Positions 17,936-39,422 of a stretch of DNA of 64,000 bases are shown here, in pieces; within the stretch, counting starts at the first letter, position 1; the number at the start of each line of letters is the position of its first letter. Both the position numbers and the translations under genes were made by a program. The notes under the pieces are model-generated. The model was given only the letters and a program-made list of their open reading frames with translations. It had not been told where the DNA came from and did no database searches. This stretch comes from Pseudomonas lijiangensis (lineage in GTDB: Bacteria > Pseudomonadota > Gammaproteobacteria > Pseudomonadales > Pseudomonadaceae). The stretch covers positions 3,235,001 through 3,299,000 of the forward strand of contig NZ_CP076668.1 in assembly GCF_018968705.1 (NCBI RefSeq). Reading direction: 5' to 3'.

Positions 17936-17960
17936 GCACCTGCATTGGATCAGCAGGTGC
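17936..17960. terminator. Hairpin between convergent genes
   Basis: GCACCTGC (17936-17943) and GCAGGTGC (17953-17960) form a perfect 8-bp stem between the XRE-cupin gene and the convergent Met-rich gene. It overlaps the last codons of the latter. No T-run, so it may act only to stabilise ends. Confidence 0.4.
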
Positions 17961-18444
17961 AGCACATCATCGGCATGCCGTTGCAGCTCATCATCATCGG
18001 CATGCTGCAGTCGTTCATCATTTTCATCATCAGCATGCAGCAGTTGTTCATCATGTCCATGCTCATGCCAGCCATCGGCATCATCTTGCAGGTCATGCCG
18101 TCAGCCATCATGGTGCATTCCATCATGCACTTCATCATCGGCATCGACATCGACATCCCCATCATCGGCATGTTCATGGACATTGCCATGGCCGCTTCCG
18201 ACATGCACATCATCGACATGTTGGCGCACTGCATCATGACCGGCATGCCGCAGTTCATCATCATCTGCATCATTTCGGCGTTGTTCTTGAACATGGCCAT
18301 GTCCATGCCAGCCGCCGGCTTCATGGTGCACATCATGCCGTCTTCGACCATGGTGCAAGTCATGGTCGCCATCATCATCGGCATGCCCATCATTGGCATC
18401 ATCGGCATGTTGGCGCTCATTGGCATCTGCATCGCGTTCATCAT
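17950..18444 (-). CDS. Methionine- and cysteine-rich low-complexity protein (42% Met)
   Basis: A 164-residue protein in which I count 69 methionines and 15 cysteines. It contains two imperfect copies of a unit of about 52 residues: the first begins TCTMVEDGMMCTMKPAAGMD and the second ECTMMADGMTCKMMPMAGMS, each followed by an NN/Cys segment and MP-MM-C motifs. There is no signal peptide; the N-terminus is MMNAMQMPMSANMPMMPM. The ATG at 18444 has a good AGAGGA site about 8 bases upstream, supporting real translation. Dense MxxM, MxM and C motifs suggest Cu(I) or other soft-metal binding, a sacrificial oxidant sink, or sulfur storage. I do not recognise a named family. Monocistronic. Confidence 0.75.
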   Translation of the reverse strand: MMNAMQMPMSANMPMMPMMGMPMMMATMTCTMVEDGMMCTMKPAAGMDMAMFKNNAEMMQMMMNCGMPVMMQCANMSMMCMSEAAMAMSMNMPMMGMSMSMPMMKCMMECTMMADGMTCKMMPMAGMSMDMMNNCCMLMMKMMNDCSMPMMMSCNGMPMMCCTC

Positions 18445-18840
18445 GGTGAAATCCTCTTCAATTTGACGATAGGGTGTGGAGCTGATGGGGGCCGATTCTA
18501 GGCTCAAGCGTGGACACGGCAAGATGCTGGCAAAACAGCACAGGATGCTGTCGGGACAAGCGGTTTTGCGCCAATTACCGGCACCTTGACTGTAGTAGAA
18601 GACAAATGACTGTTATTGCATCCTCCGATAACTTTCCAGCGACAGATACAGCGCAATAGATATCGCCATACGTTCCATGCTCATAACCCAAATGCATATT
18701 TGATCTAAACGGTTCGCAAATAAATGCGCAGATCGTGCCTTGCATAAAGCCCGTTCAACGTCAGTTGGCTCTTCACCCCGCTTGCGATCACGGCTAACCT
18801 TGGCGACCGGTCAGGCCAGCATGTCGCGCCTGCCGATCAA
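18445..18840. other. Spacer between the Met-rich gene and the IclR regulator
   Basis: About 400 bases that must contain the Met-rich gene's promoter (minus strand) and the IclR gene's promoter (plus strand). The stretch around 18580-18740 is AT-richer than the surroundings. I see no clear palindromic operator, RNA gene or further ORF with a ribosome site. Confidence 0.5.
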
Positions 18841-29629: not shown

Positions 29630-30856
29630 TTACGTTTTTTTGATAGAAAGGGTTTCAGGCACCGCCACCCACAACAGGACCAGCGCCGCAGCCGCCACAG
29701 CAGCAAGGGTCAGGAACGCCGCGCTGTAACCGGCCTCGTGCACCACAAAACCCGCCAGGCTATTGCTCAACGCCGCGCCAAGGCCGAAGACCGTCGAGAG
29801 CGCGCCAAGGCTGATGTTGAAGTGTCCGGTGCCATACGTGAGGTCTTTGACGATCACCGGAAACAGTGCACCGAAAATGCCCGCACCAACACCGTCCAGC
29901 AGTTGCACGGCGACCAGCCAGTAAGGATCGTCCGACAGGGTATAAAGCGCGCCGCGCAACGGCAGGATCAGGAATCCGATGAGCAACAGCGGCTTGCGTC
30001 CCCACAGGTCAGCCTTGGCTCCCACCAGCAACGCGGCCGGGATCATGACCAGTTGCGCCGCAACGATGCAGGCGGAAGTCAGTGGCGTGGCCATCTGCAG
30101 ATTGACCTGCGCCAGCTTCTGGCTCACCAGCGGCAGCATCGCGGCGTTCGCCAGATGGAACAGCGCGCAGCAAATGCCAAACAGCAGCAGTGGCTTGTTG
30201 GTGAGTAGTACGGAAAACCCCGAAGGCGGCTCAGCATGCTTCACATCGTGGGTATCCAGGCCACGTGCGAGGTCATGGTCGATGGCATCTGCCGAAACGA
30301 AACTGACCGCTATCACACTGCCCAGCGCCATGACCGCCATCAGGTAGAAGACTGCAACAGGCCCGAACAGGTAAGAGAAGCCGCCAGCCAGTAATGCAGC
30401 GCAGGCATTGCCGGCATGGTTGAAGGTTTCGTTGCGCCCGGTACGGCGCGTGAAGGCTTTAGGGCCGGTGATGCCCAGAGAAATCGCGGCAATGGCCGGG
30501 GCAAATACCGATGAGGCCACCGCACTGAGGGCCTGGGTCAGGGCAACCAGAGTGAATGACGTCACGAAAGGCAGCAGCAGACAGCTACCGGTCACCAAGA
30601 GTGCAGCCACTGCAATGATCGCTCGCTTGCCTCTTGCGCTGTCGACCAGTGCTCCAGCGGGAGTCTGGGTAATGAGTCCTGCTATACCGGCAATCGTCAT
30701 CACCACACCAATGCTGGCAGGATCCCAATGGTGAACGGCCAACAGGTAAATCGCCAGATAAGGACCGAGCCCGTCGCGTACGTCAGCGAGGAAGAAATTG
30801 AGGCTATCGAGGGAGAGAGCGTTGCGGCGATCCGAGTGACTGGTCAAGGCTGACAT
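29630..30856 (-). CDS. MFS transporter
   Basis: A 408-residue, roughly 12-helix inner-membrane transporter of the drug/metabolite type. Segments include SLDSLNFFLADVRDGLGPYL at the first helix, TPAGALVDSARGKRAI (loop 2-3 signature) and YGTGHFNISLGALSTVFGLG. The substrate is unknown; proteins of this kind are often efflux pumps. The ATG at 30856 is preferred to a TTG at 30862. It is divergent from the peroxiredoxin-like gene across an AT-rich 270-bp spacer. Confidence 0.85.
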   Translation of the reverse strand: MSALTSHSDRRNALSLDSLNFFLADVRDGLGPYLAIYLLAVHHWDPASIGVVMTIAGIAGLITQTPAGALVDSARGKRAIIAVAALLVTGSCLLLPFVTSFTLVALTQALSAVASSVFAPAIAAISLGITGPKAFTRRTGRNETFNHAGNACAALLAGGFSYLFGPVAVFYLMAVMALGSVIAVSFVSADAIDHDLARGLDTHDVKHAEPPSGFSVLLTNKPLLLFGICCALFHLANAAMLPLVSQKLAQVNLQMATPLTSACIVAAQLVMIPAALLVGAKADLWGRKPLLLIGFLILPLRGALYTLSDDPYWLVAVQLLDGVGAGIFGALFPVIVKDLTYGTGHFNISLGALSTVFGLGAALSNSLAGFVVHEAGYSAAFLTLAAVAAAALVLLWVAVPETLSIKKT

Positions 30857-31128
30857 CTTCAATTCTTGAGGTTTCGCGATATGACCAACCTCTGCGAGGT
30901 TAATGACCGCTCGTCACTGTTTTTAGTTTCATGAAACATTGCCAGCAGGACCAGCTCAGAAAATACCAAAATATGATCTTATTAATTTATAAAAATAACA
31001 AAAACACATAATTAGCTTAGACCTAAAAAGACTTTCACAGGCGTTTCCCAGAGGCCTATCGTCTACCCCGGTCCGACCCCTTTCCTGGCGGAGGCCGCTT
31101 CCCCAAAGACCTTCGTCAGGAGCACGTC

Positions 31129-31824
31129 ATGAGCGAATCCCTCAATCATCTATTGGCCGAACTGCATGCCGAGCGCGTACGCACCTGGGCACCCGAAGCC
31201 CTGAAGATCAATATCGATCAGCGTCAGCGACTGGTCGATGAAGCGCGACCGGATACCTTCGTCAAGACTGGCGACAGCATCGCGCCCTTTGAACTGCTCA
31301 AGGTCGAAGGGGACACGCTCAGCCTTGATCAACTGGTGGCTGACGGCCCCGCAGTGCTGGTGTTCTTTCGCTTTGCCGGTTGCCCGGCCTGCAACATCGC
31401 CATCCCTTATTACGAGCGCAACCTGCAACCGGCCCTGCGACAGCGTGGAGTTCCGCTGGTGGCGGTCAGCCCCCAGGTGCCGGAACATCTGGTGGAAATC
31501 AAGGACAAGCACTCGTTGAGCCTGCAGGTGGCCAGCGACAAGGACAATCGGCTGGGTCAGCGTTTCGGCATCCTCTACAGCTTCGACGAAGCATCACGTC
31601 AGGCCTCTCTGGCCAAAGGTCAGGGAATTGGCGCAATCACCGGCACCGGAACCTGGGAGCTGCCGCAACCGACAGTAGTAGTAGTAATCGGTCGCGACCG
31701 CCACGTGCACTTTGCCGAAGTCAGCCCCGACTGGCTGGTACGCAGCGAAGCACAAACGATCATCGATGCCGTAGATGCAGCACTGGATGCCGACAGCCCA
31801 ACGTTTCGACAAGCCAGAGCATGA
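31129..31824 (+). CDS. Peroxiredoxin-like (AhpC/TSA, thioredoxin-fold) protein
   Basis: A 231-residue cytoplasmic thioredoxin-fold protein. The redox motif is FFRFAGCPACNIAIPYYERN (CPAC), followed by PLVAVSPQVPEH and a late WELPQPTVVVVIGRD strand, as in AhpC/TSA-like proteins. An N-terminal extension of about 50 residues precedes the domain. A clear AGGAG at 31118-31122 fixes the start. It is 42 bases upstream of the flavin monooxygenase, so it may protect against peroxide leaking from that reduced-flavin enzyme; that link is inference. Confidence 0.83.
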   Translation: MSESLNHLLAELHAERVRTWAPEALKINIDQRQRLVDEARPDTFVKTGDSIAPFELLKVEGDTLSLDQLVADGPAVLVFFRFAGCPACNIAIPYYERNLQPALRQRGVPLVAVSPQVPEHLVEIKDKHSLSLQVASDKDNRLGQRFGILYSFDEASRQASLAKGQGIGAITGTGTWELPQPTVVVVIGRDRHVHFAEVSPDWLVRSEAQTIIDAVDAALDADSPTFRQARA

Positions 31825-31866
31825 TCACACCGAGCGCCCTCTATTCCACCGAAAGGACTTGAACCC

Positions 31867-33216
31867 ATGAGCAAACGCCAACTGCACTTTGGCGCCATCC
31901 TGACCGGCGTCGGCACCGACCAGCAGGAATGGCTGCACCCGGATATTCCCGGCAATGCCAGCATCGATATCGACTGGTACAAGCAGCAGGCCCGGGCGGC
32001 CGAGGCAGCGCATTTCGACTTTGTATTCATCGTCGACAGTCCCTACATCACCCCGGACTCGGCACCGCACTTTCTCAACCGCCTGGAACCGCTGACCCTG
32101 CTCTCGGCGCTCGCGGGTGCCACTGACAGGATCGGGCTGGTTGCGACCCTGACCACGTCCTACACCGAGCCGTTCAACGTAGCCCGGCAGTTCGCCTCGC
32201 TGGACCAGATCAGCCACGGACGCGCCGGCTGGAACGTGGTTACCACCGGACTTGAAGGCGCAGCGGGCAATTTTGGCCGCGAGCAGCACATAGACCATAC
32301 CGAACGCTATCGCCGGGCCAGAGAGCATGTCGCGGTGGTTCAGGGGTTGTGGGATTCCTATGAAGACGATGCCTTTCCTCGCGACAAGGCCAACAAGCGC
32401 TTTCTGGACCCCGGCAAGCAGCACCGCCTGGACCACCGTGGTGAATTCTTCTCGGTCACCGGTCCGTTGAACATTTCCCGCTCGGCCCAGGGCCAGCCGG
32501 TGATCTTCCAGGCAGGTGTTTCCGAGTCAGGGCGCAAGCTGGCAGCGGAAATCGCCGAAGGCATCTTTGCCGGTGTCGACAATTTCGAGGATGCCCGCGA
32601 GTACTACGCCGATATCAAGCATCGTGCCGCAGCCGCGGGCCGTGATCCGGCGCAAGTGCTGCTGTTCCCCGGCATTACGCCCATCATTGCCGATACCGAC
32701 GAACAGGCACAGGCGATTCTGCTGGAGCGCGAAGGCGAGGTAGACCTGAACAAGGCCTTGGTGCAACTGGGCCGCCCGTTCAACTACCACGACTTCAGCC
32801 AGTATGACCTTGACGCTCCCTTCCCCGAACTGGGCGAACTGGGCAGCAACGGCTATCGCGGCCATGCGGAGAAGATCAAGCGAGTCGCCAGGGAAAAAGG
32901 CCTGACCCTGCGCGAAACCGCCCTGCGCTTTGCCCGCCCCTTCACCGGCTTCGCCGGCTCAGCACTGACCGTCGCCAACGAGATCGAGCGCTGGTTCAAC
33001 GAAGGTGCAGTGGACGGCTTCAACATCCACGTCGGCGCACCGGCCAGCTTTGCCCGCTTTACCGACGAAGTACTGCCGATCCTGCGCGAACGCGGGCTGT
33101 TCCGCAGCGAATACCGGACCAGCACCCTGCGCGGCCATCTGGGAATCGATGTGCCGCGCAATCGCCATAGCCAGCAGGTTCAGGAGCAGGGTTCAGAAGT
33201 GACAGAGCTGGCGTAA
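31867..33216 (+). CDS. LLM-class flavin-dependent monooxygenase (NtaA/SnaA/DszA family)
   Basis: A 449-residue TIM-barrel monooxygenase using reduced FMN from a partner reductase. Family segments include LHFGAILTGVGTDQQEW, AHFDFVFIVDS, ATLTTSYTEPFNVARQFASL, GRAGWNVVTTGLEGAAGNFG and PVIFQAGVSESGRKLAAEIA. Known members act on nitrilotriacetate, dibenzothiophene sulfone and modified cysteines (B. subtilis YxeK, CmoJ). With an SfnB-like enzyme and an M20 hydrolase nearby, a role in freeing sulfur or nitrogen from an organic compound is plausible. Second gene of a pair with the peroxiredoxin-like protein. Confidence 0.87.
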   Translation: MSKRQLHFGAILTGVGTDQQEWLHPDIPGNASIDIDWYKQQARAAEAAHFDFVFIVDSPYITPDSAPHFLNRLEPLTLLSALAGATDRIGLVATLTTSYTEPFNVARQFASLDQISHGRAGWNVVTTGLEGAAGNFGREQHIDHTERYRRAREHVAVVQGLWDSYEDDAFPRDKANKRFLDPGKQHRLDHRGEFFSVTGPLNISRSAQGQPVIFQAGVSESGRKLAAEIAEGIFAGVDNFEDAREYYADIKHRAAAAGRDPAQVLLFPGITPIIADTDEQAQAILLEREGEVDLNKALVQLGRPFNYHDFSQYDLDAPFPELGELGSNGYRGHAEKIKRVAREKGLTLRETALRFARPFTGFAGSALTVANEIERWFNEGAVDGFNIHVGAPASFARFTDEVLPILRERGLFRSEYRTSTLRGHLGIDVPRNRHSQQVQEQGSEVTELA

Positions 33217-33224
33217 GGACGGAC

Positions 33225-33286
33225 TTCTCGCGAATGAGTTCGCTTGTGTCCTGGGCTCCCCGTAGGAGCGAATTCATTCGCGAAAA
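33225..33286. repeat. REP pair, one arm degenerate (family A)
   Basis: An intact unit GTAGGAGCGAATTCATTCGC begins at 33262; a degenerate inverted partner (TTCTCGCGAATGAGTTCGCT) spans 33225-33244. Located between convergent monooxygenase and sensor-kinase genes. Confidence 0.75.
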
Positions 33287-33291
33287 GGCTT

Positions 33292-34617
33292 TCACACACG
33301 CCTGGAGTAAGGCAGCCCCAACGTCACCACAAAATCCTGACTGGTGCTGTTGAAGTCAATCGTACAACCACAACGCTGTACGATCGCCTGAACGATTGCC
33401 AGGCCCAGCCCGCAACCGGTGCTTGAGCTGCTGCGCCAGAAGCGTTCGGTCATGTGGCGAAGACTGTCTTCGGACATGCCCGGGCTCGCATTCCTGACGC
33501 TGACAAAAGCAGATTCACTGTTGCTTGTCACACGGACAACCACCTGCGTATCGGCAGGACTATGTCGCAAGGCGTTGTCCAGCAGGTTGCGAAGCGCAGC
33601 CACTGCCAGTACCGACGGCATGTCCAGAGCGGCTGAAGACGTCATTGGCTGATAACTCAGCTGGATGCGCTCCGTGCTGCTGCCTGTATCCTGAATCGCC
33701 AGGGAGACCGCCTGCTCGACATTGCACTGGCTGCCATCCTCGAATGACAGGCTGCCCTCGACCCTGGCCAGCAACAGCAATTGCTCAAGGGTGTTGTGCA
33801 GCCGGTCAGTCCCTTGCTCGGCACGCACCAATGCCAGCTCTCTGGCTTCACCGCTGGTCATCTGCGCAACCTGCAAATGGGTTTTTATCGCGGTCAGCGG
33901 GCTGCGCAGTTCGTGGGCGGCATCACCGGTCAGGCGGCGCTCACGTTCGACTGCCTGGCTGATTCGCACCAACAAGTGGTTTTGTGTTTCCAGCAGCGGC
34001 TGCAATTCATTGGGCAGCATCCGAAGCTGTAGAGGCTCAAGAGAATCAATATTGCGTTTCTTGAGTTCGTCACGCATGCGCTTGAGGGGTGACAGGCCTT
34101 TGCCTATGCCCAGCCAAAGCATCGCAACGCACGCCAGCAGCGCGACCAGCACAGGAACGGACGCTGACAGCAGGACAGAATGGTTGAGGGATTCGCGCTC
34201 CTGCTCACGATCCGCCGTGGTGATGCGAACATCGCCCTGAACAAGGGTAAAGGTGCGCCAATGTTCGCCGTCGATCTCCTGATCATGAAAGCCGCCATTG
34301 GCACTGGCGATGATATTGGCGACGTTGCCATGGCTGCTGGCCAGGATTTCCCCACGCAGCGAACTCACCTCGCAGGCCATGCCATCAGGAATGACCAACT
34401 GGTTTGCGCTGAAATGAGCACCGCCCTCCTTCGTCGACAAAGGTTCGGGTAACTGATCAACCAGAGAGGCGACCATACGCGCCGACGCCGCAAGCCGTTG
34501 ATCGAGGGAGAACATCATCTGGGTTCGCAGGTCCTGATACATCCAGGTAGCGGCCAGCGTCCAGACCACGACAAAGGCAACTCCAAGAATCAGGGTCAGA
34601 CGCAGGCGCAGACTCAT
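33292..34617 (-). CDS. Two-component sensor histidine kinase (QseC/PmrB-like)
   Basis: A 441-residue inner-membrane kinase. Membrane segments at about residues 7-25 and 148-170 flank a periplasmic domain of about 120 residues. The HisKA motif ERERRLTGDAAHELRSPLTA has phospho-acceptor His235, and the ATPase domain has LRNLLDNALRHSP, a degenerate G1 box and GCGLGLAIVQAIVQRCG. It should phosphorylate the response regulator whose stop overlaps its start (ATGA, 34614-34617). The signal is unknown. Confidence 0.88.
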   Translation of the reverse strand: MSLRLRLTLILGVAFVVVWTLAATWMYQDLRTQMMFSLDQRLAASARMVASLVDQLPEPLSTKEGGAHFSANQLVIPDGMACEVSSLRGEILASSHGNVANIIASANGGFHDQEIDGEHWRTFTLVQGDVRITTADREQERESLNHSVLLSASVPVLVALLACVAMLWLGIGKGLSPLKRMRDELKKRNIDSLEPLQLRMLPNELQPLLETQNHLLVRISQAVERERRLTGDAAHELRSPLTAIKTHLQVAQMTSGEARELALVRAEQGTDRLHNTLEQLLLLARVEGSLSFEDGSQCNVEQAVSLAIQDTGSSTERIQLSYQPMTSSAALDMPSVLAVAALRNLLDNALRHSPADTQVVVRVTSNSESAFVSVRNASPGMSEDSLRHMTERFWRSSSSTGCGLGLAIVQAIVQRCGCTIDFNSTSQDFVVTLGLPYSRRV

Positions 34618-35285
34618 GAACCTGCCTCCAGTGCCCCGAGCCGATAACCCGAGCCGCGCACAGTCTCGACAATGCCGTTACCCAGCTTGCGACGAAGATG
34701 AAAGATATGGACGTTCAAGGCGTTGCTTTCGACCTCATCACCGAAGCCGTACACGCTGTCTTTCAACTGCTCGATGGAAAGCACCCTGCCCCGGTTGTTG
34801 AGCAATGCCAGCAGCAGCGCCTGCTCACGGCGCGAAAGATCGATGGCCTCACCCGCCAGCCAGGTTTCCCGTGTGCTCGGATCGTGGGTTACGGCTCCGT
34901 GTTCGATAAGATTGACCGCCCGACCTGCAACTCGGCGTACCAAGGTATGCAGGCGAGCATACAACTCCCTCAGATCGAAGGGCTTGAGCAGGTAATCATC
35001 AGCACCCGCTTGCAGTCCTTTGACCCGGTCATCCACATCATCGCGTGCGGTCAGTATCAAGACCGGTATCGTCTGACCGGCAAGCCGCAAACGCCGTAAC
35101 AGACTGATCCCGTCCTCATCAGGCAAGCCCAGGTCGAGAATCATCACATCGAACTGCGCGACATCCAGCATGGCATAAGCAGCAGAGGCAGAAGCCACGC
35201 GGTCGACGTTCAAACCCTGGGCGTTCAAACCGGCGACGATGCCACTGGCAATGAGTTCATCATCTTCACACAGCAATACGTGCAT
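34614..35285 (-). CDS. OmpR-family response regulator (QseB/PmrA-like)
   Basis: A 223-residue regulator: receiver domain with acidic pocket Glu7-Asp8-Asp9, phospho-acceptor Asp51 (ILDLGLPDEDG) and Lys in LLKPFDLREL; a C-terminal winged helix with LSRREQALLLALLNNRGRV, NALNVHIFHLRRKLG and VRGSGYRLG. The ATG at 35285 begins the conserved strand MHVLLCEDDE and is preferred to 35336. First gene of a coupled pair with the kinase; a small exported protein gene lies 90 bases upstream in the same direction. Confidence 0.88.
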   Translation of the reverse strand: MHVLLCEDDELIASGIVAGLNAQGLNVDRVASASAAYAMLDVAQFDVMILDLGLPDEDGISLLRRLRLAGQTIPVLILTARDDVDDRVKGLQAGADDYLLKPFDLRELYARLHTLVRRVAGRAVNLIEHGAVTHDPSTRETWLAGEAIDLSRREQALLLALLNNRGRVLSIEQLKDSVYGFGDEVESNALNVHIFHLRRKLGNGIVETVRGSGYRLGALEAGS

Positions 35286-35375
35286 GGCCGACTCTGGTGG
35301 AGGACAGGATTTCATGCTTGCCACAATAACGCGCAAGCGGCATTTCAGGTTCTGAAGATAACAAATGCTTATGAT

Positions 35376-35612
35376 TTAACTGGCAGGTTTTTCGTCCATC
35401 TCCCGAGGCTTTGCATTCCCCCTGGAAGCACTTGCGGCTGCCTGACTCTTTTCAGCCTTCTCCTGAGCTTTCGCAAGGTTCTCACGCGCCTGCTGACGCT
35501 CCAGCGCAAAAGCCTCCTGACGCTTTTGAATCATGTCAGCGCCATCCTGGGCAAAGGCAGTGGTGCAGCACAGGGCAAGAAACGAAGTCAGGATAAATTT
35601 GCGGGTAGTCAT
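35376..35612 (-). CDS. Small exported charged coiled-coil protein (78 aa)
   Basis: A 78-residue protein with a clear signal peptide (MTTRKFILTSFLALCCTTAF, cleavage near AFA-QD). The mature part is a highly charged helix (QKRQEAFALERQQARENLAK and AQEKAEKSQAAA), probably a coiled coil. A GAGAGAT site precedes the ATG. It lies upstream of and co-directional with the two-component genes, so it may be a signal-related accessory or a target of the system. I do not recognise a named family. Confidence 0.7.
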   Translation of the reverse strand: MTTRKFILTSFLALCCTTAFAQDGADMIQKRQEAFALERQQARENLAKAQEKAEKSQAAASASRGNAKPREMDEKPAS

Positions 35613-36041
35613 CGGGTATCTCTCTCATAGGTGGCAGGCTTGCAGCGCCAAGGGCGTCTGCTTCAAGTGACTGCACTTTGAGGGAGGCCGATTAAGGCAT
35701 CGTTAACACGGTCGAGGATTTTGAAAAGAACCCCACACCGTCAAGGATCGTGGTAGCGGGATGACTCGATCATGGCATAAAGACCAAGCGTGGCCCGGAA
35801 GCGCACCACTGGAAAAAGAGGAAATAACCGCTCACATCACTGAGGCAGTTATCAAAGAACAAAGTCGAAGGTCGAAAAACTTGACGACTATCCGGCCCCT
35901 CTTAAACTTACCCAACGTCTTCTCGATAAGCTCAATTCGATTTTTATATCAGAATATACAACCCTCGACATCCGCAGCACTCTTTCAGTTACTTCCCGGA
36001 TTTTCAGGAAATAAAACTCCAGACGCTGCAGGTCAATAGTC
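35613..36041. other. AT-rich spacer before the DarA/DarB cassette
   Basis: About 430 bases, with a marked drop in GC from about 35700 rightwards. It must contain the minus-strand promoter of the small exported protein and the plus-strand promoter of the darA-like gene. A 92-codon frame (35761-36039) exists but has no convincing ribosome site. AGCGGGA (35755-35761) followed by GACTCGA (35763-35769) echoes two blocks in the 3' half of tRNA-Gly. No repeat, RNA gene or integrase remnant is otherwise visible. Confidence 0.5.
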
Positions 36042-36983
36042 ATGAAACGTATACTGGTGGTCTATTTTTCACAAACAGGGCAATTGAAACGTGCAGCGGA
36101 TTCATTTGTCCGCGCTCTGATTGAAGATGATCGCGTGATCGTAGAGTTCGAGGAGCTTGCCCCGCTCAGGCCTTATCCATTTCCCTGGTCATTTATCGAG
36201 TTCTTCGACCAGTTTCCAGAAGCAACATATTTATATCCACCACGCATGCACCCCTTCAAGGCTGATATAAACACACGATATGACCTTGTCATTCTTGCAT
36301 ACACCGTCTGGTTTCTGTCACCTAGCCCTCCTGTTACAGCTTTTTTGAAATCTGCAGAAGGACAAGTCATTCTTCGTGACACAGCAGTGATCACACTTAT
36401 TACGTGCAGAAATATGTGGATACAGGCACAGGAACAAGTAAAAAAGCTATTGCTTCAAGCCAATGCACGGCTTCTGGACAATGTTGTTCTCACCGACAGG
36501 GGAAGCGCCCTCAAAACGCTTGTAACAACACCGCGCTGGATGTTCACCGGAAACAGGGAAGCCTTTTGGGGAATATTTCCACGCGCGGGTCTGACGGACG
36601 AAGATGTTCAATCTGCTCAACGATTTGGCAAGGCTCTTCTTCCTGAACTTGTAAATGGCCGCATGGAGCAAAGCTCGCCGTTGTTGAAAGGCCTGAAAGC
36701 CGTCCGTGTTGATCCACGGCTCATCGACAGCGAAAAATTTGCTCGTCGCAGCTTTCTACTCTGGGGGAAATTATTTCTCGCGATAGGCCCTCAGGGACAT
36801 CCTCACAGAAAACTTGCTGCCATCGCGTATGGCGTTTTCATGATCTGCATGGTGGCCACTGTTATTCCCGCGATGATGGGTCTGAGAACACTTATAAAAC
36901 CAATGCGTCGGCACGCATTCGAAAGGCAATGCCGTTATTTTGAGGAGCCTTCCGGGTCTAGTGGCTTTCGCATGAAGGATTAA
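36042..36983 (+). CDS. DarA-like flavodoxin-fold enzyme of dialkylresorcinol-type biosynthesis
   Basis: A 313-residue protein with an N-terminal flavodoxin fold (LVVYFSQTGQLKRAADSF phosphate-binding loop; LAYTVWFLSPSPPVTAFL) and a C-terminal hydrophobic segment (AYGVFMICMVATVIPAMMGL) that could anchor it to the membrane. This layout matches proteins annotated as dialkylresorcinol condensing enzyme DarA, thought to aromatise the cyclohexanedione made by DarB. The next gene, two bases away, is DarB-like, which supports the call. GC and codon use are lower than in the flanking genes, consistent with transfer. Confidence 0.75.
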   Translation: MKRILVVYFSQTGQLKRAADSFVRALIEDDRVIVEFEELAPLRPYPFPWSFIEFFDQFPEATYLYPPRMHPFKADINTRYDLVILAYTVWFLSPSPPVTAFLKSAEGQVILRDTAVITLITCRNMWIQAQEQVKKLLLQANARLLDNVVLTDRGSALKTLVTTPRWMFTGNREAFWGIFPRAGLTDEDVQSAQRFGKALLPELVNGRMEQSSPLLKGLKAVRVDPRLIDSEKFARRSFLLWGKLFLAIGPQGHPHRKLAAIAYGVFMICMVATVIPAMMGLRTLIKPMRRHAFERQCRYFEEPSGSSGFRMKD

Positions 36984-36985
36984 TC

Positions 36986-38143
36986 ATGAGCTCATCAGTC
37001 TATATCAACCGCGCCGCTACTTTTTTGCCTGGCGCACCTGTCTCGAACGATGACATGGAAAATATTCTTGGTACCGTAGCAGGCAAAACTTCACGCGTGC
37101 GGCAGAAAATCCTGAAAAGTAACGGAATCCGAAACCGTCATTACGCAATTGACCCGGCAACTCATCGACTTACCCATAACAACGCACAGCTCACTGCCGA
37201 GGCGGTTCGCAACCTCAGGATTGAAAACCCAGTGTTATCAACCCTGGAATTACTCTGTTGCGGCACCAGCAGTCCGGATCAGATTTTCCCAAGTCACGCC
37301 TCGATGGTGCATGGAGAGCTTGCCTGTCCACCCTGCGAGCTGGCTTCATTCAGCGGAGTCTGTCTCTCTGGACTGTCTGCAATCAAATACGGATACGTGT
37401 CGATTCTCTCAGGCTTGAGGCACCAGGCCATTGCAACGGGTTCTGAACTGGCGTCCACATTCATGCAGGGAAAACATTTCACGGAAGAATCCGAATCAGC
37501 TATTCATGAACTGGAAGCACAGCCTGAAATCGCGTTCGAGAAAGACTTTCTCCGCTGGATGTTATCGGATGGGGCAGGCGCGGTGCTCTTGAACGACAAA
37601 CCGAATCCAAGCGGTATTTCTCTGCGGATTGACTGGATCGAGATACTGTCCTATGCCAATTTACTACCGGTCTGCATGTATGCAGGAGCGATAAAAAATA
37701 AAGACGGAACACTGACAGGATGGCGAGAGTTCAACTCGTACAAGGAGCTGGGCGAACACTCCGTATTCGCTATAAAACAGGACGTCAAACTTCTCAATGA
37801 ACATGTTGTGAACATTACCATTGCCAAAGGGCTTCAGGATATTCTTGAGAAAAGAGCACTGACACCGGAAGAGATCGACTGGTTTCTACCACACTACTCC
37901 TCCAAATTCTTTCGCCAGCGGATTTACGACTCCTTGAAATCCATAAACTTCGAAATACCCGATGAGCGCTGGTATACAAATCTGGAGCGCGTCGGAAATA
38001 TCGGAGCAGCTTCCATCTATTTCATGCTTGCAGAGCTTCTCAACAGCGAAAAGCTGAGCAATGGCGATAGCATTCTGTGTTTCGTTCCTGAAAGCGGGAG
38101 ATTTTCAACGGGTTTCATGAAAATGACAGCCATTTATCAGTAA
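36986..38143 (+). CDS. DarB/StlD-like ketosynthase III (cyclising beta-ketoacyl synthase)
   Basis: A 385-residue KAS III-fold enzyme. The catalytic triad is readable: Cys126 in FSGVCLSGLSAIKYG, His303 in DWFLPHYSSKFF and Asn338 in RVGNIGAAS. The N-terminus (YINRAATFLPGAPVSNDDME) and the pairing with a DarA-like gene place it with DarB/StlD, which condense two beta-ketoacyl or acyl intermediates and cyclise them to dialkyl-cyclohexanediones. AAGGAT lies five bases before the ATG. No acyl carrier protein gene is present, so it would use the housekeeping ACP pool. Low-GC like its neighbours. Confidence 0.8.
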   Translation: MSSSVYINRAATFLPGAPVSNDDMENILGTVAGKTSRVRQKILKSNGIRNRHYAIDPATHRLTHNNAQLTAEAVRNLRIENPVLSTLELLCCGTSSPDQIFPSHASMVHGELACPPCELASFSGVCLSGLSAIKYGYVSILSGLRHQAIATGSELASTFMQGKHFTEESESAIHELEAQPEIAFEKDFLRWMLSDGAGAVLLNDKPNPSGISLRIDWIEILSYANLLPVCMYAGAIKNKDGTLTGWREFNSYKELGEHSVFAIKQDVKLLNEHVVNITIAKGLQDILEKRALTPEEIDWFLPHYSSKFFRQRIYDSLKSINFEIPDERWYTNLERVGNIGAASIYFMLAELLNSEKLSNGDSILCFVPESGRFSTGFMKMTAIYQ

Positions 38144-38178
38144 TGGGCATACATACCCTCTCTTAACAGAGCTTTCAC

Positions 38179-39240
38179 ATGAAAAATCACTCACGAAAAA
38201 ACGCACTGTCAGCGGCCGAGATGCCCTGCCCGCATTCATCCGAAATGCAATTATTGAATTTGATTACCGGAGCCTGGGCGTCTCAAGTCATATATGCCAC
38301 AACCCAATTCGGATTGATCGATAAAATACAAGAAGGCACTCACAGCACAGAAGGCCTGGCGTATGGACTAGGGGTCAGGGAAAAGGAACTGCATCGCTTA
38401 CTGGGCGCAATCGAGGCATTTGGACTTATCAGCGGATGCGCCAAAAACCATATTGAACTGACGGAGATGGGCAGTTTGCTTTGCTCCAACAGAAGCAACT
38501 CGCTTCGTCCACTTGCACTGTTCTGCGCCCAAGGCTGGCACGTAAAAACCTGGGAGCATTTACTCCAAAGACTGAATCTGGAAAAACCGGCATTTGACCA
38601 CATCATGGGAATGCCACTGTTCGACTATTTGCAGGGTACTCCTGATGACAGGGCCTTGTTTGATAGCGCCATGGACAGCCTATCGTTACTCTGGGGACCA
38701 AAGATAGTTCAACACATGAATCTTTCAGACGCGAAATCCGTCATTGATATTGGAGGCGGGAGAGGTATATTTCTTGCTGAAATCCTGTCACAACACCATC
38801 ATCTGGAAGGCCGCCTGCTCGACCTGCCCGAAGCTCTCGAACAGGCTCGACACACTCCATATCTCCAGGACTTTATCTCCCAGGGTCGCTGCAAATTGAT
38901 TGAGGGTTCATTTTTCGACAGATTCTCTACCTCGGCTGACACCCATGTAATGAAATTCATCATGCATGATTGGGGGGATCAAGAGGCTCTGACAATACTG
39001 GAGAACAGTCGAAATGCGTTATCGGTGGATGGGCAGCTTTTTATTGTGGAGCAGATCATTGATCCGGCTAAAAAATCACCCTTCACGCAACTCTGTGACA
39101 TTGAGATGCTGCTCTTTGGTAACGGAAAGGAACGTACCGCAGAGGAGTTCTGCAGACTGATCGAGCACGCCGGCTTCACGGTTGAAGACATCAGTGAAAC
39201 CGCTACACCCTTTTCGATCATCCAGGCAAAACCACACTGA
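38179..39240 (+). CDS. SAM-dependent O-methyltransferase of the small-molecule (plant OMT-like) type
   Basis: A 353-residue class I methyltransferase with an N-terminal dimerisation/winged-helix region (residues about 20-105) and a SAM-binding domain (VIDIGGGRGIFLAEIL, about 188-203). His263 in KFIMHDWGDQEAL is the expected catalytic base for phenol O-methylation. Such enzymes tailor aromatic secondary metabolites. Thirty-five bases after the ketosynthase gene, it probably methylates a hydroxyl of the resorcinol-type product. The known Pseudomonas dar loci are not known to me to carry this gene. Confidence 0.85.
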   Translation: MKNHSRKNALSAAEMPCPHSSEMQLLNLITGAWASQVIYATTQFGLIDKIQEGTHSTEGLAYGLGVREKELHRLLGAIEAFGLISGCAKNHIELTEMGSLLCSNRSNSLRPLALFCAQGWHVKTWEHLLQRLNLEKPAFDHIMGMPLFDYLQGTPDDRALFDSAMDSLSLLWGPKIVQHMNLSDAKSVIDIGGGRGIFLAEILSQHHHLEGRLLDLPEALEQARHTPYLQDFISQGRCKLIEGSFFDRFSTSADTHVMKFIMHDWGDQEALTILENSRNALSVDGQLFIVEQIIDPAKKSPFTQLCDIEMLLFGNGKERTAEEFCRLIEHAGFTVEDISETATPFSIIQAKPH

Positions 39241-39310
39241 ACCTCTCAGACGGGAAAAGCAGGGGAAGATGAAAGCGGGCAGGCACAGCCTGACAGAAAA
39301 CGCACAAACA

Positions 39311-39338
39311 AAAACGCCACTCTATTGAGTGGCGTTTT
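39311..39338. terminator. Bidirectional intrinsic terminator
   Basis: AAAACGCCACTC (39311-39322), loop TATT, GAGTGGCGTTTT (39327-39338): a perfect 12-bp stem flanked by A- and T-runs on both sides. It serves the tRNA-Gly transcript on the minus strand and probably the methyltransferase cassette on the plus strand. Confidence 0.92.
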
Positions 39339-39346
39339 TGTGAATC

Positions 39347-39422
<76 letters not shown>

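Follow-up and report, generated by a model that had tools for sequence, protein, structure and literature searches.

Dialkylresorcinols are described as antifungals in biocontrol pseudomonads (PMC6403133) and as cell-cell signals acting through PauR in Photorhabdus, with cyclohexanediones as intermediates of the pathway (PMC4414361). The closest described system in Pseudomonas is the darABC-darSR locus for 2-hexyl-5-propylresorcinol (HPR) in P. chlororaphis PCL1606 (PMC6403133), and a darA-darB core is also common to loci for hybrids of aryl polyenes and dialkylresorcinols, such as arcuflavin from Azoarcus sp. BH72 (PMC3949708) and the products of marine Pseudomonadaceae (PMC10165715). Here we analyze a 64,000-nucleotide stretch of the Pseudomonas lijiangensis genome (contig NZ_CP076668.1, positions 3,235,001 to 3,299,000; hereafter the window), in which positions 36042-39240 carry a cassette of three genes, coding for a DarA-like flavoprotein, a DarB/StlD-like ketosynthase, and a methyltransferase. 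Like the HPR locus, the cassette belongs to a Pseudomonas, has adjacent darA and darB genes and presumably directs the synthesis of a fatty-acid-derived resorcinol; unlike it, it is accompanied in the window by neither a darC-like acyl carrier protein (ACP) nor an AraC-type regulator, and has the methyltransferase added.

We propose, with a probability of roughly 0.6, that DarB and DarA make a 2,5-dialkylresorcinol and that the methyltransferase caps a phenol to give a predicted methoxy-dialkylphenol, the whole being a compact, horizontally acquired three-gene pathway. DarB would condense two acyl thioesters, probably fatty-acid-derived, into a 2,5-dialkylcyclohexane-1,3-dione, which DarA, a flavodoxin-fold flavoprotein, would oxidise to the 2,5-dialkylresorcinol in a predicted aromatisation dependent on flavin mononucleotide (FMN). 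The methyltransferase, with S-adenosylmethionine (SAM) as the donor and His263 as the base, would then cap one phenolic hydroxyl, yielding 3-methoxy-2,5-dialkylphenol if the position is as we suppose. Starter units and carrier would be drawn from the general pool of the host, which would make a dedicated ACP unnecessary; the genome has 71 PP-binding matches, several of which fall in short frames (83 to 103 aa), so that a carrier from elsewhere is available. In P. chlororaphis darC mutants still make HPR in reduced amounts, while loss of darA or darB abolishes its production (PMC6403133), and darB and darA of C. pinensis, expressed heterologously, yielded a dialkylresorcinol (PMC3992019). The missing ACP is therefore less telling than the preliminary description of this locus implied, and the resorcinol should require no more than darA and darB, with the third gene left for methylation. 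The type of resorcinol ring is well supported; we infer the methylation step and its position, as well as a biological role as an antimicrobial or a signal.

The three open reading frames (ORFs) were found exactly where they had been described, adjacent and all on the + strand, with gaps of just 2 bases (DarA/ketosynthase) and 35 bases (ketosynthase/methyltransferase), which makes a single operon likely. The ring-forming ketosynthase (36986..38143, 385 aa) scores 578.8 bits on the NCBIfam model NF005293 (StlD/DarB, cut-off 450), and its residues 1-382 align with the StlD structure 5gk0, which we take to be from Photorhabdus, with an E-value of 4.5e-129, in agreement with the family assignment made earlier. 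The Cys126/His303/Asn338 triad is indeed intact and is joined by Glu154, presumably another active-site residue; all four are kept in 15 of 15 aligned rows. We rejected a FabH identity, as FabH chains match with E-values of 1.3e-12 or weaker; a grouping with FabH had been named as evidence against the proposed pathway, and the ketosynthase lies far from FabH (the tree described below contains no pyrone synthases). It shares 96% identity with a protein that bears the name P. cichorii, which makes the P. cichorii group the probable home of the host, and all 43 matching records in a plasmid collection fall below 60% identity. The first gene (36042..36983, 313 aa) encodes a DarA-like flavoprotein, a predicted FMN aromatase with long C-terminal helices. 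No Pfam or NCBIfam model matches it, but the predicted fold is flavodoxin-like over residues 1-209 (model predicted local distance difference test score 90.8), and it shares 85% and 63% identity with the DarA proteins of two loci, L005 and L006, discussed below. We assigned it to DarA as a flavodoxin-type flavoprotein encoded beside DarB; the DarA alignment comprises 31/80 DarA matches, L009, whose range extended beyond a stop, being excluded.

The product of the third gene (38179..39240, 353 aa) is a SAM-dependent methyltransferase that scores 134.6 bits on PF00891 (gathering cut-off 22.3) and carries His263, Glu291, Glu318, and the motif DIGGGRG at 190. The earlier designation as an O-methyltransferase with its catalytic His thus holds for the family and for His263, but the acceptor is not fixed by the sequence. 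The best solved relatives, mostly natural-product methyltransferases, are MmcR, 6c5b (named only methyltransferase), CalO6, DtpM, AlpH, and the PhzM-like 2ip2. Affiliation with FlxJ was rejected (33.5 bits on NF053543, cut-off 560). Scoring of 2453 candidates having short words in common with the query, drawn from 5.8 billion proteins, gave 6 clusters of relatives at E <=1e-60 and 50 at 1e-30; the six share 54-93% identity with the query, and the next relatives fall to 34%, which marks an orphan clade. Four of the methyltransferase clusters and four ketosynthase clusters of the cassette clade have longest contigs of equal size (150871, 331531, 69457, 368945), which suggests that the two genes are linked there as well.

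A scan of genome contigs revealed 247 stretches that encode a relative, of which the best 80 loci were kept. Among these a DarA match is present in 37 and directly adjacent in 27; contigs are often short, and in the 62 loci with at least 1.2 kb of flank on both sides DarA is seen in 30. A close methyltransferase occurs in two of the 80, L005 from P. cichorii MAFF 302096 (80% identity) and L006 from P. bananamidigenes BW11P2 (53%). Both have the three-gene order, whose occurrence in other genomes the preliminary description had suggested looking for. The left flank of the window reappears, rearranged, in L005, and none of the neighboring genes of the window that were tested was found in L006, hence the cassette occupies two different sites. 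Its GC content is 48.6%, against 58.4% to the left (window 30800-35700) and 59.4% in uvrC, and in L006 it is 46.5%, against 59.8 and 61.1% in the flanks; the cassette thus has the appearance of a small unit gained by horizontal transfer. Between the window and L005 the divergence at codon positions 1, 2, and 3 is 11.8, 5.4, and 26.5% for DarA, 7.3, 4.4, and 27.5% for DarB, and 11.5, 9.5, and 30.9% for the methyltransferase, with the same ranking in the comparison with L006, which indicates that all three genes are under purifying selection. Because the order recurs in two other genomes and the genes are under purifying selection, it goes beyond chance. The idea of a new O-methylated dialkylresorcinol cassette can thus be upheld as far as a conserved DarA-DarB-methyltransferase unit is concerned, found across species and distinct from classical dar; O-methylation and novelty of the product are predictions. 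As separate observations, the L005 contig stops just past the methyltransferase gene, and its positions 1-330 contain a partial tRNA-Gly 3' end with a terminator (123-191), followed by the second copy of a 92-base segment (237-327) also found upstream of the dar genes, an arrangement that looks like the scar of a past integration or rearrangement.

At the level of the genus, the ketosynthase has a match at E <=1e-60 in 35 of 398 genomes and the methyltransferase one at E <=1e-50 in 2. A search centred on genome G369 with the L006 methyltransferase retrieved 1 of 394 genomes, G369 itself, from what is apparently the same sample. For 30 of the 35 matches (all except G027, G117, G332, G121, and G381) a locus was available, with flanks of about 1.5 kb at most, and tblastn assigned each a single kind of partner gene: BtrH-like in 25, ACP in 3, and methyltransferase in 2, with no overlap. 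The methyltransferase loci thus add a third type to the dar loci of Pseudomonas. Pfam confirms the BtrH_N domain in two BtrH-type loci, which by analogy with Azoarcus may make polyene hybrids; BtrH-like genes are present in many loci outside Pseudomonas too. At L117, one of the ACP-type loci, both the ACP and a single AraC-type regulator are confirmed by Pfam; where P. chlororaphis has a second regulator, only a DJ-1/PfpI protein was seen, so that the label "HPR-type" is an analogy. A tree of 163 ketosynthases separates the same groups. It was calculated with a quick method and midpoint-rooted, with support from the Shimodaira-Hasegawa-like approximate likelihood ratio test (SH-aLRT) only and no bootstrap, for StlD, the non-duplicate locus ketosynthases, and proteins P0007-P0060 (P0012 out; P0061-P0126 left out), locus and P-series sequences being at least 360 aa long. 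The cassette ketosynthase belongs to a clade of its own with 8 rows, two of them identical (SH-aLRT 99; sister P0013 at 98), StlD and three ACP-type Pseudomonas rows form a separate clade (99), and the 25 BtrH-type Pseudomonas rows, every one with a BtrH-like gene at its locus, form a third (100). In genome G121 we also found a 43% identical StlD/DarB relative with no DarA match (L121), whose neighbors include, by eye, AMP-ligase-like, desaturase-like, ACP-like, and methyltransferase-like ORFs, and which possibly represents another ketosynthase pathway.

Several observations weigh against the proposed methoxy-dialkylphenol pathway. The ketosynthase scores 497.5 bits on NF053539, the DarB exception model, below the cut-off of 550; this model was passed by 0 of 9 tested proteins and, as an ACP-type DarB reaches only 507.1 bits, is non-discriminating here. 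No exporter or resistance gene adjoining the cassette was recognised by eye. The PDB relatives of the methyltransferase include the hydroxylase RdmB and a C-methyltransferase, and for this reason the acceptor cannot be read from the sequence. It is conceivable, though unlikely, that the enzyme acts before aromatisation, on the enol of the cyclohexanedione, or on a ring carbon, with an enol ether or a C-methyl resorcinol as the end product. The acceptor left open by the sequence and the C-methyltransferase, found among the weaker relatives, speak for this; against it, the best solved relatives are the mostly natural-product methyltransferases listed above, and a His-Glu pair such as that of the cassette enzyme suits phenol O-methylation. 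We consider it improbable that the target of the methyltransferase is a phenol of exogenous or host origin, or that the enzyme serves self-protection by capping excess resorcinol, so that the active product would be the free dialkylresorcinol: by eye no other self-protection genes could be recognised beside the operon, which would fit such a role, yet the co-inherited, dedicated methyltransferase and ketosynthase clades are explained no less well by a step in biosynthesis.

Coupling of the product to an aryl polyene, as in arcuflavin- or flexirubin-like hybrids whose methyl group would sit either on the phenol left free or at the head of the polyene, deserves slightly less credence than methylation before aromatisation or on carbon. 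Methyltransferases are named in both the arcuflavin and flexirubin pathways (PMC3949708, PMC3992019), a distant homologue of the cassette methyltransferase (24% identity) stands beside darA in two Bacteroidetes loci, L058 and L064, and the same genome has, at about 443 kb, a cluster of aryl-polyene-like appearance in which two small ACPs adjoin each other (its other genes named by eye). Against this, a BtrH-like gene is present in the Azoarcus dar operon (PMC3949708) and in 25 of 25 sister-clade Pseudomonas loci, while BtrH_N has no match in the whole source genome or in G369, although the same search found it in 3 of 3 BtrH-type genomes; moreover, the ketosynthase clades differ and the methyltransferase falls far short of FlxJ. 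That the three genes are chance neighbors or a decaying remnant is very hard to believe: low GC content and a tRNA neighbor suggest an island, but three genomes preserve the order, at two different sites, the frames are intact, and divergence is lowest at codon position 2 in all three genes. The methoxy-dialkylphenol reading can be extended, tentatively, to a self-sufficient mobile operon that would turn general fatty-acid intermediates into an undescribed mono-O-methyl 2,5-dialkylresorcinol, a third Pseudomonas chemotype in addition to HPR and polyene hybrids; methylation of this product might shift its function from antifungal towards diffusible signal.

The 5' intergenic region (35640..36041, + strand) is largely common to P. 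cichorii, L005 4678-8264 matching the window from 35660 onward in blastn, and is a probable promoter region with one promoter-like match at 35881-35908; the number of predicted sites, 5 against a shuffle mean of 4.1, is no higher than in shuffles, and the terminator scan gave 5 against 4.7. An ORF at 35761-36039 was rejected as a gene, as the homologous L005 stretch is broken by a stop. Downstream of the methyltransferase gene an inverted self-match (39308..39341) is a likely terminator, absent from the list of the terminator scan, and is followed by tRNA-Gly(GCC) (39347..39422, - strand) with its 3' end towards the cassette; beyond it come pgsA and uvrC, identified by eye, and the gene for a regulator of the GacA type. 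The reported lack of an ACP and of dar regulators was borne out for the window: tblastn detected neither a BtrH-like gene nor an ACP like that of the ACP-type locus over its whole length, and of 23 HTH_18 matches genome-wide none lies in it, the nearest, at 3310877, being separated from the cassette by about 37 kb. A QseBC/PmrAB-like two-component pair lies beside the cassette (33292-35336, - strand); we did not accept it as the cassette regulator, L006 having no QseB match, and in G003, G005, G010, G014, and G015, the five relatives in which QseB and pgsA both match on a single-contig genome, the best QseB match is more than 130 kb from pgsA. Elsewhere the window contains a 190-aa ORF that is rich in methionine and matches no Pfam model (17950-18522, - strand) and the Pseudomonas small RNA P15 (43836-43953, + strand; Rfam RF00627, 125.6 bits).

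Judged by titles and the openings of abstracts, none of the papers listed in the literature searches reports an O-methylated dialkylresorcinol made by a darAB-methyltransferase locus or describes the third, methyltransferase type of dar locus; an O-methyl alkylresorcinol ester terpenoid annotated by mass in a P. fluorescens extract is not a DarAB product (PMC7463883). With only three genes, among them a methyltransferase of its own, the cassette is a short pathway in which a new tailoring of dialkylresorcinols can be tested directly. Tailored dialkylresorcinols, as proposed here, are known from the cyanobacterial bartolosides, for which the source names chlorination, esterification, and glycosylation as tailoring steps, and no methylation in the part available (PMC7081238). 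The flexirubin pathway of Bacteroidetes, with its darAB loci (PMC3992019) and the FlxJ family, likewise combines darAB with a methyltransferase step, but the cassette enzyme is far below the FlxJ cut-off and only distantly related to the L058 and L064 homologues. StlD has the family and the active-site residues of the cassette ketosynthase, yet clusters with the ACP-type DarB, from whose clade the cassette ketosynthase is separate. Pseudomonas accordingly possesses three separate types of dar locus, each with a distinct partner gene.
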